From Anaerolineae bacterium (lineage in GTDB: Bacteria > Chloroflexota > Anaerolineae > UBA4142 > SHND01): 38,701 nt of DNA. Below are positions 161 to 4,966 of this stretch, in pieces. A program made the position numbers and the translations under genes. The stretch's first letter is position 1; the number at the start of each line of letters is the position of its first letter. The notes under the pieces were generated by a model that was given only the letters and a program-made list of their open reading frames with translations, made no database searches and had not been told where the DNA came from. The stretch spans positions 1 to 38,701 of the forward strand of contig JAJTXZ010000048.1 in the NCBI GenBank assembly GCA_021463195.1, written 5' to 3'.

Positions 161-1183
161 CTACTGCGTAAACAATTCGGGATGAATCAATTTTGCGGCG
201 GCTTCCAAACCATCTGCCACGCGCGGGCCTGGGCGACTCACCAGATTGTCATCAATCGGAAACACCTGATTCAATTTCACCGCCTCGATTACATTCCAGC
301 CGGGGCGCTTGCCGACCGATTCGGGCGCAATGCCGTATGCGGCATCGCTAAGAATAATCACCTGCGGATTCGCTTTGATAATTTCTTCGACATTGAGCTG
401 CGGGAAGGGCGACGTCGCGCCCGCGGCGATATTGATGCCGCCCGCGCGCTTGATAAGCTCATCCACAAAACTGCCCGGTCCGGGCGTGAACGGTTTCGCG
501 GGATCCGTCGCGTCAAGTTCCCAAAATACGCGCGGTTGCGTTTTTGCCTGCGCGACTTTTTGTTCCACTTTGGCGATTTTCGCCCACATTGCCGTGACCA
601 CCGCGTCCGCCTGCTCAGCATTGCCGACGGCGACGCCAACCATTTTGATTTCACTGGCGATGGTGTCGAAAGTTGATTTTTCAGCGCCAACCACCAACAG
701 CGACAGTTTTAGCTCATCCAACTTTTTAATAACATCCGGCGACGTAATCCCTGCGACGAGAACGAGGTCGGGTTTGGCTGCGACGATTTGTTCATAATTC
801 GGGTTGAACCCATCGCTCAGTTTCGGCACCGCTTTGACTTGGGCGGGATAATCAGAAAATTGGTCCGCGCCGACAAGTTTATCGCACGCGCCGACCGCGC
901 AAACGATTTCGGTCGTGCTGGGCGCAAGCGAAATAATGCGCGCGGGGATTGCAGTCAAGGTCAATGAACGCCCCGCGCTGTCGGTCACGGTGATTTCTGA
1001 CGCAGCGGACGTTGGCGGCGCGACAGTCGGCGCAGTGGTCGGCGCGACGATTGGCGCGGTAGTTGGCGCGATAGTCGGTTGAATATTCGGAATAGGTGTC
1101 GCGGCGGGACTGCACGCGGCAATCAAGCTAGCGCTCAACAGCGCGCCGAGACTCAGCTGCACAAGAATTTTTCGGATTCGCAT
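161..1183 (-). CDS. Cobalamin-type ABC transporter substrate-binding lipoprotein
   Basis: This 340-residue protein is a helical-backbone periplasmic binding protein of the BtuF/FhuD/FepB class. It has a lipoprotein signal (LSASLIAAC, lipid-anchored Cys24), a Pro/Thr/Ala-rich linker at about 25-62, then the binding domain with IISLAPSTTEIV and KPDLVLVAG motifs and a late PGPRVADGLE stretch. It should sit on the outer face of the membrane and pass substrate to a BtuCD-type permease, which is not in the window. The cobalamin riboswitch 300 nt upstream on the same strand makes corrinoid the likely substrate; sequence alone would also allow haem or siderophore. The ATG at 1183 is chosen because the signal peptide starts there. 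Confidence 0.88.
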   Translation of the reverse strand: MRIRKILVQLSLGALLSASLIAACSPAATPIPNIQPTIAPTTAPIVAPTTAPTVAPPTSAASEITVTDSAGRSLTLTAIPARIISLAPSTTEIVCAVGACDKLVGADQFSDYPAQVKAVPKLSDGFNPNYEQIVAAKPDLVLVAGITSPDVIKKLDELKLSLLVVGAEKSTFDTIASEIKMVGVAVGNAEQADAVVTAMWAKIAKVEQKVAQAKTQPRVFWELDATDPAKPFTPGPGSFVDELIKRAGGINIAAGATSPFPQLNVEEIIKANPQVIILSDAAYGIAPESVGKRPGWNVIEAVKLNQVFPIDDNLVSRPGPRVADGLEAAAKLIHPELFTQ

Positions 1184-1340: not shown

Positions 1341-1478
1341 ATAATTACACACGATACAAGCGTGCGTTCACGCACGCATGCTTCAGATGCCTGCCCCCTT
1401 TCTCGCGAAGGAATATTGGCGATGTGAATCATCGCCACAGGATATCTACGAATAATGGACCCGTAAAATTATTCGCAG

Positions 1479-1604
1479 CAACATACGGGCGACCTGGCTT
1501 GAAACAAGCATAATCGTTTCATCGCGCTAAAACGCTAGCGCGCGCTTGTTCGTTTTACAGTTGCGGGACAGCGCGGGGATTTCACCCGACTTCGCCGTAT
1601 GTTG
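1479..1604 (-). ncRNA. Cobalamin riboswitch (AdoCbl class)
   Basis: The minus strand carries the family's conserved blocks in order: GGGTGAAATCCCCGCGCTGT, then CCCGCAACTGTAA, then AAGCCAGGTCGCCC. A perfect 10-bp P1 helix (CAACATACGG at 1595-1604 pairing with CCGTATGTTG at 1479-1488) closes the aptamer. It is followed in the transcript by a terminator and the BtuF-like gene, so bound corrinoid should shut off the uptake gene. The conserved core and P1 closure make this identification firm. Confidence 0.93.
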
Positions 1605-1635
1605 TAGGATAAATTGTTAAATTGAAACTGCGGAC

Positions 1636-1844: not shown

Positions 1845-3476
1845 ATGCAAACCGCGCGCGAAATTCTCTGGACTGCGGCATTCCTCAACGAACGCTTTAC
1901 CGAACCTGTTTCACCGCTCGGTTGGTCGCACGTCGGCGCGCTGTTTCAAGAGCTCGCGCTGCGCGATCCGCTGCGCTATGTGGGCTATCCCGACGCGGAA
2001 AAAATTCCGACGACGCGCCTGTGGAGCGCGCTGCCGTATGTGAACGTCGAAATTTTTCAGATTCTATACAAACCGTTTCCCGACGCGCTGGTGCCTGCCG
2101 ACGCGGCGCGTTATTTTCCGAACGGCGACATAAATTTCCGAAAACGCGCGCCGTATCCAACCTGGCGTTGGCTGCCGCATTTCCTATGGTCGTTGCTGCG
2201 CCACACGCTGCGCGACCTTCTCAACACCTCGCCATTGAATTATCGCAAATGGCAAACCTTTGTGCCTTGGCACGAAACGCAAATACAACGGCTTGGCGCG
2301 CGCCTTGACGCGGCAACGAACGCGCTGGACCTTTGGCGAATCAGTGTCGCGCTGTACGATCTCGACACACAGCTGCTATCCATTCATCGCTGGTCGCTGA
2401 CCTACGCGGATGTGCTGCACAAGCTGCTCGCGCGGTGGGCGGGCGAGCTCGCGTCGCCGCTCATCAGCGATACGCCGAATAAAACACGTATCGTCAACGC
2501 GCAGCTCGCCGCGCTCGCGCGAATGCCCGCGCCACTGAACGCGAGCTTGTTAGCGCGCATCCAACGCGGCGACGCGCTCTCGGACGCGGAACAAGAAACC
2601 GCGCGCGCGCTCGACGCTTTTTTAATAGCGCACGGTCATCGCGCGTTTTCGCTTGACCTCGCGCAGCCAACCTTTCGCGAGGACCCCACTCAACTGCTGC
2701 CGCTTTTGGGCGACGCTGCCGCGTCCGCGCGTTCGTCACGCGAAAATTTACCTGCGGCATTCCAGACGGCATGGCGCAAATTGCGCTGGTGGCAGCGTCT
2801 GCTTTGGCGCCCCGTCATCGGGTTAGCGCGCCATTATACACAGCTGCGCGAAGACCAACGCTACTATTGGCAAAAATCGCTCGCGCTCACGCGCCGCGCG
2901 TATTTAAAAATCGGCGCGCAATATACCGCGCAAAATATTCTCGCCGCGCCCGCTGAAATTTTTTACGCGACGCGCCAAGAGCTTGCGCAATGCGCGCGCG
3001 GCGATTTGGACGCGTCTTTTTTGCGCGCGCGTATCGCGGCGCGGCAAAATGAATGGGCGACGTATCGCCGAGAATTCGCCGAACGCGGCGCGGCGGCAAC
3101 GCCGCATTTCTTGCGCGACGACACGCCGCTGACAGAAAATAAAATAGCGACAAGCGAAACGAATGTATGGCGCGGGCGCGGCGTGAGTCCCGGCATTGCG
3201 CGCGGCATAGCGCGCATCGTTCACGACCCACGCGCGTTGGGGCGCGTCGGCGCGGGCGAAATCTTGGTGACGCCTTCGACCGATCCCGCGTGGACTCCTG
3301 TGTTTGCGCGACTGGGCGGCTTGATTATAGAGCGCGGCGGAATCTTGTCGCACAGCGCGGTAGTCGCGCGCGAGTATCAATTACCTGCGGTGATCGTGGC
3401 GGGGATTTCGCGCGTCCTGCGCGACGGCCAAGAAATTGAAGTGGATGGCACGAACGGGAGCGTTCGATGTGTGTGA
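1845..3476 (+). CDS. PEP-utilising enzyme, phosphohistidine swivel-domain protein
   Basis: This 543-residue protein ends (about 440-543) in a phosphohistidine swivel domain of the PEP synthase / pyruvate phosphate dikinase / rifampicin phosphotransferase kind. It shows GVSPGIARG, then LIIERGGILSHSAVVARE with the phospho-acceptor His503, then a closing EVDGTNG. The first 430 residues are helical and Arg/Ala-rich and resemble the middle part of long PEP-utilising proteins. No ATP-grasp nucleotide-binding domain is present, so on its own the protein lacks the usual ATP-handling half. It may pair with a separate ATP-binding subunit or act on another phosphoryl donor. Its promoter lies 7 nt before the start and a strong hairpin follows the stop. 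Function beyond phosphohistidine chemistry is unknown. Confidence 0.75.
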   Translation: MQTAREILWTAAFLNERFTEPVSPLGWSHVGALFQELALRDPLRYVGYPDAEKIPTTRLWSALPYVNVEIFQILYKPFPDALVPADAARYFPNGDINFRKRAPYPTWRWLPHFLWSLLRHTLRDLLNTSPLNYRKWQTFVPWHETQIQRLGARLDAATNALDLWRISVALYDLDTQLLSIHRWSLTYADVLHKLLARWAGELASPLISDTPNKTRIVNAQLAALARMPAPLNASLLARIQRGDALSDAEQETARALDAFLIAHGHRAFSLDLAQPTFREDPTQLLPLLGDAAASARSSRENLPAAFQTAWRKLRWWQRLLWRPVIGLARHYTQLREDQRYYWQKSLALTRRAYLKIGAQYTAQNILAAPAEIFYATRQELAQCARGDLDASFLRARIAARQNEWATYRREFAERGAAATPHFLRDDTPLTENKIATSETNVWRGRGVSPGIARGIARIVHDPRALGRVGAGEILVTPSTDPAWTPVFARLGGLIIERGGILSHSAVVAREYQLPAVIVAGISRVLRDGQEIEVDGTNGSVRCV

Positions 3477-3490
3477 CGACGGTTAAAAAT

Positions 3491-3543
3491 AAAGCAGCCG
3501 ATTATTGCGCCCGGCCGCGCAATAATCGGCGATGGGCTGCTTT
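3491..3543 (+). terminator. Long hairpin after the PEP-swivel gene
   Basis: A two-part stem (AAAGCAGCC/GGGCTGCTTT enclosing GATTATTGCGC/GCGCAATAATC) starts 14 nt after the stop codon. Only three Ts follow, so it is a strong hairpin with a weak U-tract. It probably marks the end of the rightward transcript. Confidence 0.6.
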
Positions 3544-3575
3544 GGGGGGAAAAGCAGACCCATTTGCTTTCGTAT

Positions 3576-3610
3576 AAAAAAACATCCGCCTCTAGCCAAA
3601 GAAGCGGATG
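3576..3610 (-). terminator. Intrinsic terminator after the GEMM riboswitch
   Basis: On the minus strand, stem CATCCGC/GCGGATG (3583-3610) is followed by seven Ts. It lies 45 nt downstream of the GEMM aptamer and is the last signal of the leftward M42 transcript or of a separate riboswitch RNA. Confidence 0.8.
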
Positions 3611-3654
3611 CGATGTCAAGCCAAGCCGCGCGTCAAACCTTACCGATTCGACCT

Positions 3655-3757
3655 ACTCTTTGGAAACCGGGCTACCATGACTCTTGCGGTCAAGCAAGAA
3701 TTTTAGGTCCCGTAGTTTTGCGTCCACGCCTTTCGCCGTGTTTGCCGTTAACAGAGT
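3655..3757 (-). ncRNA. GEMM-I (cyclic di-GMP type) riboswitch, orphan
   Basis: On the minus strand the conserved GEMM features occur in order: GGCAAAC; a P2 hairpin CACG..CGTG capped by a GAAA tetraloop; GGACGCAAAACTACGGG; a CCTAAA...ATGG tetraloop receptor around a hairpin with stem CTTGC/GCAAG; then GGTAGCCCGGTTTCC. P1 is ACTCT/AGAGT. It begins 76 nt after the stop of the last M42 gene and is followed by a terminator, but no leftward gene follows; the next DNA is the rightward PEP-swivel gene. Ligand choice (c-di-GMP or cGAMP) was not resolved from sequence. Confidence 0.85.
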
Positions 3758-3780
3758 GTAATTTAAAGTGCCGTGCTTGC

Positions 3781-3816
3781 GCCCATTGTACACGCGCGAC
3801 GCGCCCAATTCAATGG
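3781..3816 (-). repeat. Hairpin between the M42 stop and the GEMM aptamer
   Basis: CCCATTG/CAATGGG arms (about 3782-3788 and 3810-3816) form a stem 17 nt after the M42 stop codon. There is no T-tract. It may be a 3' processing or stability element separating the M42 message from the riboswitch. Confidence 0.4.
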
Positions 3817-3832
3817 GAGTTTAGTACCAAAT

Positions 3833-4966
3833 TCAAAGCGTTTTAGCGGCAAACACGCTAGTCAGAATTTCAATAATATTCGCCACATCACGCGCGTCCA
3901 CCATTTCCGATTGGGTATGTAAATAACGCACGGGCAACCCCAAAGCGCCGGTGACAGTCCCTTCGCGCGCGGCTTGAATCGGCGCGCCTTCGCCGCCGCC
4001 GCGCGCATGCGCTTGAATCTGGTAGGGCGTCTGCGTCTGGCGCGTCGCTTCCAATAAAACTTGCCGCGCCGCCGCGCTCGCAATCATTTTTTCATCCTGC
4101 GCCAAAATCGCCGGACCTTTGCCCAGCGCGAGATTTGTATCGCCGCCGGGAAAATCTTGCGCGGGCGTCGCATCCAAAACGAATGCGTAATCGGGCTGCA
4201 ACGCGAATGCGGCGGCGCCCGCGCCGCGCGCGCCCACCTGCGATTGCACGGTGAATACGCAATACACATCATGCGTCGCGCGTTTCAAACGGCGCAGCGT
4301 TTCAATCAATATCGCGCCGCGCGCGCGTCCGCTCAACGCTTTGCCGCACAATAAATTTCCTGCCGCGCGAAATTCGCCGACAAGGCAAGCGGCGTCGCCT
4401 ATCCGCACTGGCGCGTCTTGCGCCGATGTCGCGCCCACATCCAAAAAGAACGCGTCCGCATCCTTTTCAGTGTCCGCCGCGCCGCGCGTCTCGCGCCCAA
4501 AGACGCCAATCACGCCATTCTCGAATTGACAGCGCGCGCCGGGTAGCGTCAACGGTTTGACCGCGCCCAACATTCCAAAACGCGCAAAACCGCGCGCATC
4601 CAAAAATGTGACCATCACGCCCGGCTCATCAAGCGGCGCGGTCACCATGATTTTTTTGCGGCGATTGCCTGCGCCCTTGCGCAGCGCAATTAGATTGCCG
4701 AACGCGTCCACGCGGATTTGGTCTGCCAAACCTTTGATTTCCGCGCGCGCGAGCTCGCGCACCGCCTCTTCGCTGCCAGAGGGGCCGTACGTTTCTGACA
4801 GACGTTTGATTAGTTGATGAAAGGGCGTGAGCGCATCAGCCGCGTGCGTGGGCGACGGTGCGGGCAGGTCAAAGGCAGGAAAATGCGCGCGGGCACGCGC
4901 GGCCTGATTTTCTTTACGAGTCATAGCTAAACCTTTGGGTGACTGCGACCTTGGAGCGTGTGACAT
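3833..4966 (-). CDS. M42-family peptidase paralogue, probably inactive
   Basis: The 377-residue protein has the M42 (TET aminopeptidase) fold: LIKRLSETYGPSGSEEAVRE at the N-terminus, a middle PDZ-like insertion, and a C-terminal VRYLHTQSE. Against its two neighbours the first metal His is Pro111 (APLDEPG versus AHMDEVG), the bridging Asp is Ser212 (ALSGRAR versus ALDDRAG), and the catalytic Glu-Glu is Ser242-Gln243 (TVQSQVG versus TTQEEIG). The GGTDAG motif is GGEGAP. Only Asp265 and His350 remain. It should therefore not bind the two-metal centre, and a structural role in a mixed M42 assembly is plausible. Its start lies 4 nt after the upstream stop. A second ATG at 4924, with AAAGG before it, would drop 14 residues. 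Confidence 0.85.
   Translation of the reverse strand: MSHAPRSQSPKGLAMTRKENQAARARAHFPAFDLPAPSPTHAADALTPFHQLIKRLSETYGPSGSEEAVRELARAEIKGLADQIRVDAFGNLIALRKGAGNRRKKIMVTAPLDEPGVMVTFLDARGFARFGMLGAVKPLTLPGARCQFENGVIGVFGRETRGAADTEKDADAFFLDVGATSAQDAPVRIGDAACLVGEFRAAGNLLCGKALSGRARGAILIETLRRLKRATHDVYCVFTVQSQVGARGAGAAAFALQPDYAFVLDATPAQDFPGGDTNLALGKGPAILAQDEKMIASAAARQVLLEATRQTQTPYQIQAHARGGGEGAPIQAAREGTVTGALGLPVRYLHTQSEMVDARDVANIIEILTSVFAAKTL

Follow-up and report, generated by a model that had tools for sequence, protein, structure and literature searches.

Riboswitches are usually filed by the protein gene that stands behind them, and those without one are dropped as orphans or relics. In Listeria, two non-coding RNAs, AspocR and Rli55, lie under B12 riboswitches (PMC8079631). 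In Rli55 a riboswitch and its terminator precede the non-coding RNA, the ligand shortens the transcript, and the long RNA, which sequesters EutV via ANTAR elements, acts only without ligand (PMC8079631); AspocR is likewise a riboswitch-terminated non-coding RNA, about 1400 nt long and antisense to pocR (PMC8079631). For c-di-GMP, merRNA of Bdellovibrio carries the riboswitch in an RNA without a conserved downstream ORF and has been proposed to act as a ligand store (PMC3627812), and a survey predicted antisense-acting c-di-GMP riboswitches (PMC9943018). Our search of the open-licence literature found no report of a c-di-GMP riboswitch controlling a distinct small RNA. We take B11 of mycobacteria to be the same molecule as 6C RNA. 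6C/B11 represses mRNAs through C-rich loops that pair with G-tracts near ribosome-binding sites (PMC12395582).

We analysed a stretch of 38,701 nt (the window) from an Anaerolineae bacterium (GCA_021463195.1, contig JAJTXZ010000048.1, positions 1-38,701; genome G000). Judging from sequence comparison, one locus in this window is likely to be a self-contained minus-strand transcription unit that yields a c-di-GMP-gated small regulatory RNA. Its arrangement, a riboswitch and terminator between a promoter and a conserved non-coding RNA, reads as that of the Rli55/AspocR kind, and here too the ligand is predicted to shorten the transcript, so that the long RNA would act only without ligand. The locus differs from Rli55 in its ligand, in its phylum and in a C-rich loop that suggests base pairing instead of protein sequestration, and it differs from AspocR in that the RNA stops before the convergent gene. 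With merRNA it shares a c-di-GMP riboswitch without a conserved downstream ORF, but no downstream RNA output has been described for merRNA, whereas a distinct conserved RNA and a controlled terminator are present here. If true, this reading would tie small-RNA regulation directly to c-di-GMP. The likely output of this seemingly orphan GEMM is a conserved RNA, which suggests that other orphan GEMMs, too, deserve re-examination for RNA outputs.

Layout of the locus and its aptamer

The features of the locus are as follows.

3833..4966, minus strand: M42 peptidase gene (PF05343), upstream; syntenic marker outside the unit, same neighbour in relatives
3785..3817, minus strand: promoter CCCATTGA-N19-TACAAT (-35 TTGAAT, 17-nt spacer, -10 TACAAT); 33-nt geometry common to 8/8 loci
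3659..3756, minus strand: c-di-GMP-I (GEMM-I) riboswitch aptamer (RF01051, 64.5 bits)
3656..3663, minus strand: predicted antiterminator strand 1, CCAAAGAG, at the aptamer 3' end (P1 strand); pairs with 3603-3596 and has 4 nt in common with P1
3596..3603, minus strand: predicted antiterminator strand 2, UUCUUUGG, in the terminator loop and upper 5' arm; partner matches in four genus GEMM loci
3574..3611, minus strand: riboswitch-controlled intrinsic terminator from folding, a 12-pair hairpin (3611-3582) and T run
3485..3565, minus strand: small non-coding RNA (6C-like), two hairpins and U tract; covariance model R1 100.9 bits, single copy, syntenic, fold z -6.3, covariation
3532..3563, minus strand: small-RNA hairpin 1, loop UCCCCCC (3550-3544), from fold and covariation
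3497..3530, minus strand: small-RNA hairpin 2, GC-rich, the small-RNA terminator, with loop GGCCGG and the U tract behind it at 3493-3485, from fold and covariation
1845..3476, plus strand: convergent PEP-utilizer mobile-domain protein gene (PF00391); syntenic marker outside the unit, same neighbour in relatives

The original prediction of a minus-strand GEMM-I aptamer with a GAAA tetraloop was borne out. An Rfam scan of the window matched the full c-di-GMP-I model (RF01051, positions 1-87) at 64.5 bits (E 1.5e-10) against a gathering score of 35, and the tetraloop is present; at this score a chance or weak aptamer was rejected. The aptamer starts 76 nt past the end (3833) of the last of three consecutive M42 genes and is followed by the terminator, and the next ordinary-sized gene beyond is the convergent PEP-utilizer gene, all as had been described. 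Position 11 of the RF01051 model, which we take to be the ligand-contacting G20 in Vc2 numbering that separates c-di-GMP from cGAMP types, was G in the alignments of 6/6 GEMM loci, which classes the window aptamer as c-di-GMP type. This aptamer is the only RF01051 match in the G000 genome (4.7 Mb, 98% complete). The same genome encodes seven GGDEF proteins, indicating that the cell is able to make c-di-GMP.

The only other Rfam match above its gathering score in the window was a cobalamin riboswitch (RF00174, 33.7 bits, 1467-1617, minus strand), followed by a terminator (1340-1317) and a PF01497 periplasmic-binding-protein gene (161-1183, minus strand); this is an ordinary B12-uptake switch. 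Elsewhere in the genome, at G000:C65:26950-27218 on the plus strand, a tandem pair of c-di-GMP-II-like matches scored 46.6 and 41 bits against a gathering score of 53.5; this is perhaps a divergent tandem c-di-GMP-II riboswitch.

A probable small RNA, conserved behind the riboswitch terminator

The GEMM had been called an orphan with no gene to control. That holds for protein genes, but directly after the riboswitch terminator comes an RNA element of about 80 nt that is conserved, covaries and ends in a terminator of its own. This second pair of hairpins with its own U tract (3565-3485), lying between the terminator and the PEP gene, was absent from the original prediction, and it encodes no plausible protein.

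Relatives were searched with RF01051 (149 genomes) and with the two neighbouring proteins (40 genomes), and eight loci were compared: six species of the genus (G000-G005) and two genera of the sister family (G014, G018), all eight genomes probably being metagenome-assembled. Across the genus, the flanking proteins share 52-73% identity with their window counterparts. The order M42, GEMM, convergent PEP gene recurs at the syntenic site in G001, G002 and G004 of the genus and in G018 of the sister family; in G014 the M42 gene and GEMM are followed by a tRNA gene in place of the PEP gene. The full unit of promoter, GEMM, terminator and small RNA stands after M42 in four genus species and both sister-family genera. 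Loss of a downstream gene was rejected, because all six GEMM loci are arranged alike and in none does a protein gene stand directly behind the terminator, the outcome of the synteny comparison that had been proposed as a check. G003 and G005 keep the promoter and small RNA but lack both the GEMM and its terminator, and there the promoter runs straight into the element (in G003 a contig break separates it from the M42 gene). Survival of the small RNA after GEMM loss suggests that the small RNA is the output common to all these loci, and the riboswitch a regulator that can be dispensed with.

Two further observations concern the upstream side of these loci. The final M42 gene of G001 (G001:C35:75804-76905) is broken across two frames, a possible frameshift or assembly error. 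In G004 (C80, about 3560-3765) a pair of 70-80 nt palindromic repeats (GTAGCGCAACAACATGAGATTGC...) lies between M42 and the small-RNA promoter, and the end of this repeat, ATGTTGTTGC, occurs in G005 too.

The covariance model R1 gave one strong match per genome, at 53-107 bits, in 6/6 genus genomes and in G014 and G018. The other 12 of the 14 sister-family genomes gave no small-RNA match, and a search of 396 genomes of the class and 400 of the phylum yielded no convincing match beyond the eight. The weaker R1 matches that were read by eye were palindromes or ordinary terminators without the C6 loop. A mobile or repeated element was rejected, since each genome holds one good copy in a syntenic place. 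Over 79 nt, the small RNAs of the genus share 85-97% identity; in comparisons of the genus with the sister family identity drops to 48-60%, with the structure retained. In the alignment, 99.0% of cells were paired, compared to 87.2% in shuffles and 32-51% in slid controls. Changes on both sides were found in 18/26 pairs, a count reached by 0/500 shuffles; this alignment was fitted to the structure, and a prior MAFFT alignment gave 14/26. The five members tested had fold z-scores of -4.6 to -6.6, and T residues follow hairpin 2 on the small-RNA strand in 8/8. Also kept in 8/8 were GCCGGGC around loop 2 and, within or next to loop 1, six or more consecutive C. The conservation of GCCGGGC at the hairpin 2 loop (window about 3516-3511, minus strand) has no evident reason; with its self-complementary GGCC/CCGG, the GGCCGG loop could support dimerisation.

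The nearest Rfam family is 6C RNA (RF01066; gathering score 47), with matches of 32.9 (E 0.6) and 32.8 bits in two relatives and of 17.0 bits in the window. The 6C RNA of Actinobacteria has a similar size and a hairpin with a six-C loop followed by a terminator hairpin (PMC4046766, PMC12395582). However, 6C RNA has two C-rich stem-loops of about six C each, whereas loop 1 here is CCCCCC and loop 2 is GGCCGG or UAGCCGG; it also belongs to another phylum and is not described as riboswitch-controlled (PMC4046766, PMC12395582). Membership in 6C was rejected on score, second loop and phylum, and R1 defines a new RNA family in Chloroflexota.

Comparison of sequences thus establishes which parts are present and conserved, that there is covariation, and that the small RNA persists where the GEMM is lost.

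Alternative readings of the locus

The best surviving alternative, which we regard as improbable, is that two terminators are simply stacked: the GEMM leader would be a free-standing c-di-GMP store or decoy, and the hairpins a back-up or bidirectional terminator protecting the PEP gene. The merRNA precedent, a non-coding RNA with a c-di-GMP riboswitch, no conserved downstream ORF and a proposed storage role (PMC3627812), makes such a leader conceivable, and the element does end in a terminator hairpin adjoining the convergent gene. Yet G005 and G003 keep the element and promoter though the GEMM is gone, and G014 has no PEP gene downstream to protect. A mere terminator would need neither the conserved C6 loop and GCCGGGC nor the covarying hairpin 1, and the antiterminator pairing described below implies that read-through has a purpose.

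It is very unlikely that the element encodes a micro-protein (MGLLFPPKQPIADYCAAGRNNRLLYF, 26 codons in G000), with the riboswitch an ordinary switch of a tiny gene. Read from the ATG, the frame closes after 26 codons in G000, stays open for 27 or more in the other five members of the genus, and is preserved by a 3-nt insertion in G002. The pattern of change, however, is not that of a coding sequence: substitutions fall 3, 7 and 5 times at codon positions 1, 2 and 3, so that third positions are not favoured, 9 of 14 changed codons are non-synonymous, and the changes preserve base pairs. The ATG also lacks a preceding Shine-Dalgarno-like sequence, and G014 and G018 have neither an ATG there nor a similar peptide.

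Slighter still is the chance of a gated antisense RNA against the PEP-utilizer gene in the manner of AspocR, one of the readings in the original prediction. The PEP gene is convergent and close (in the window, about 9 nt separate the U tract from the PEP stop codon), but the small RNA terminates before that stop codon wherever the PEP gene follows on the same contig. Moreover, the gap between small RNA and PEP gene is longer in G001, G002 and G004 than in the window, and in G014 the PEP gene is missing at this place, a tRNA gene being next. Of that earlier reading, the ligand-gated RNA came closest to being right, and the antisense target gives way to a small RNA.

Least probable of all are the two other suggestions, that the GEMM serves the M42 operon as a 3'-UTR switch or that it is a relic whose gene was lost. 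Both draw on its position on the strand of the M42 gene, 76 nt past that gene's end; against them, a promoter with invariant spacing in 8/8 loci sits between M42 and the GEMM at an M42-promoter distance varying from 15 to 275 nt, and the GEMM is conserved in two families with its expression platform kept.

Predicted switching, trans action and candidate targets

In the preferred reading, a c-di-GMP-gated small RNA, the promoter at 3817-3785 would start a leader holding the GEMM-I aptamer. At low c-di-GMP, the aptamer 3' strand CCAAAGAG would pair with UUCUUUGG of the first terminator, which would then fail; polymerase would carry on until the terminator of the small RNA at about 3485, and the product would be either a transcript of about 290 nt or, after processing, an RNA of about 85 nt. 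With c-di-GMP bound, P1 would form, the pairing strand would be held, the first terminator would fold, and a leader of about 200 nt would be released without the small RNA. These three sizes are inferred.

The terminator loop and upper arm can pair with the aptamer 3' strand in 6/6 GEMM loci. The pairing is CCAAAG with CUUUGG in G000, G001 and G002, a CUUUUUGG variant in G004, and CCGAAG with CUUCGG (A-U to G-C) in G014 and G018. Per-locus shuffles gave p values of 0.017-0.19 for this helix, and the best-scoring helix of G001 lies elsewhere in the spacer. Across the GEMM loci of the order, the same test was not significant (Fisher p 0.14), because platforms vary. When the RNA was cut just after the terminator loop, the antiterminator fold was the minimum-energy fold in 5/6 loci and 1.3 kcal/mol above it in G000; it beat the P1 fold by 3 to 11 kcal/mol in the five loci with P1 defined. 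In full-length RNA the advantage, 0.3-9.6 kcal/mol, passed to the free fold, in which the terminator is formed. With the antiterminator on the loop and upper arm only, the lower terminator stem could still form. By these models, all six loci have competing antiterminator and terminator structures and hence an expression platform predicted to be able to switch, with modest support per locus.

In the four genus loci, P1 and the antiterminator strand have 3-4 nt in common. The assumed P1 of G014, 3 bp long, has no overlap with that strand, and no clear P1 was found in G018. Since the ligand stabilises P1, and P1 overlaps the antiterminator strand in the genus loci, the small RNA is predicted to be OFF with c-di-GMP.

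The other GEMM-I riboswitches of the order, in the loci read, share the aptamer, and several have the CCGAAG x CUUCGG antiterminator design. They precede protein ORFs, mostly secreted as judged by eye, whereas the window GEMM precedes an RNA, making this locus an exception in its own clade.

By analogy with 6C/B11 of mycobacteria, we hypothesise that the small RNA is probably trans-acting and that its CCCCCC loop pairs with ribosome-binding sites rich in G. In the G000 genome, GGGGGGA-N-ATG sites numbered 21, compared to 4 in the reversed control, and most of these ATGs start no real ORF. The few plausible G-run sites include an M20-like peptidase and, by eye, an apparent ribosomal protein S21, and no target is claimed. 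The S21-like gene (G000:C102:25684-25699, minus strand) has seven G before its start codon and is a possible partner of the C-rich loop. To the wider proposal that the genome's only GEMM-I might govern many genes whose ribosome-binding sites are G-rich, by way of a 6C-like small RNA acting in trans, we give somewhat less than even credence; if true, one second-messenger signal would reach many genes post-transcriptionally through one RNA.

The promoter pattern CCCATTGA-N19-TANAAT has identical length in 8/8 small-RNA loci, and the motif occurred 27 times in the six genus genomes, compared to once for the reversed control. Separately, some promoters of the genus, in at least three species, carry conserved GAAC-N4-GTTC inverted boxes, which resemble a LexA/SOS box, between CCCATTGACA and TATAAT (for example G000:C126:9166-9198, G001:C224:12249-12281 and G002:C20:49217-49249).
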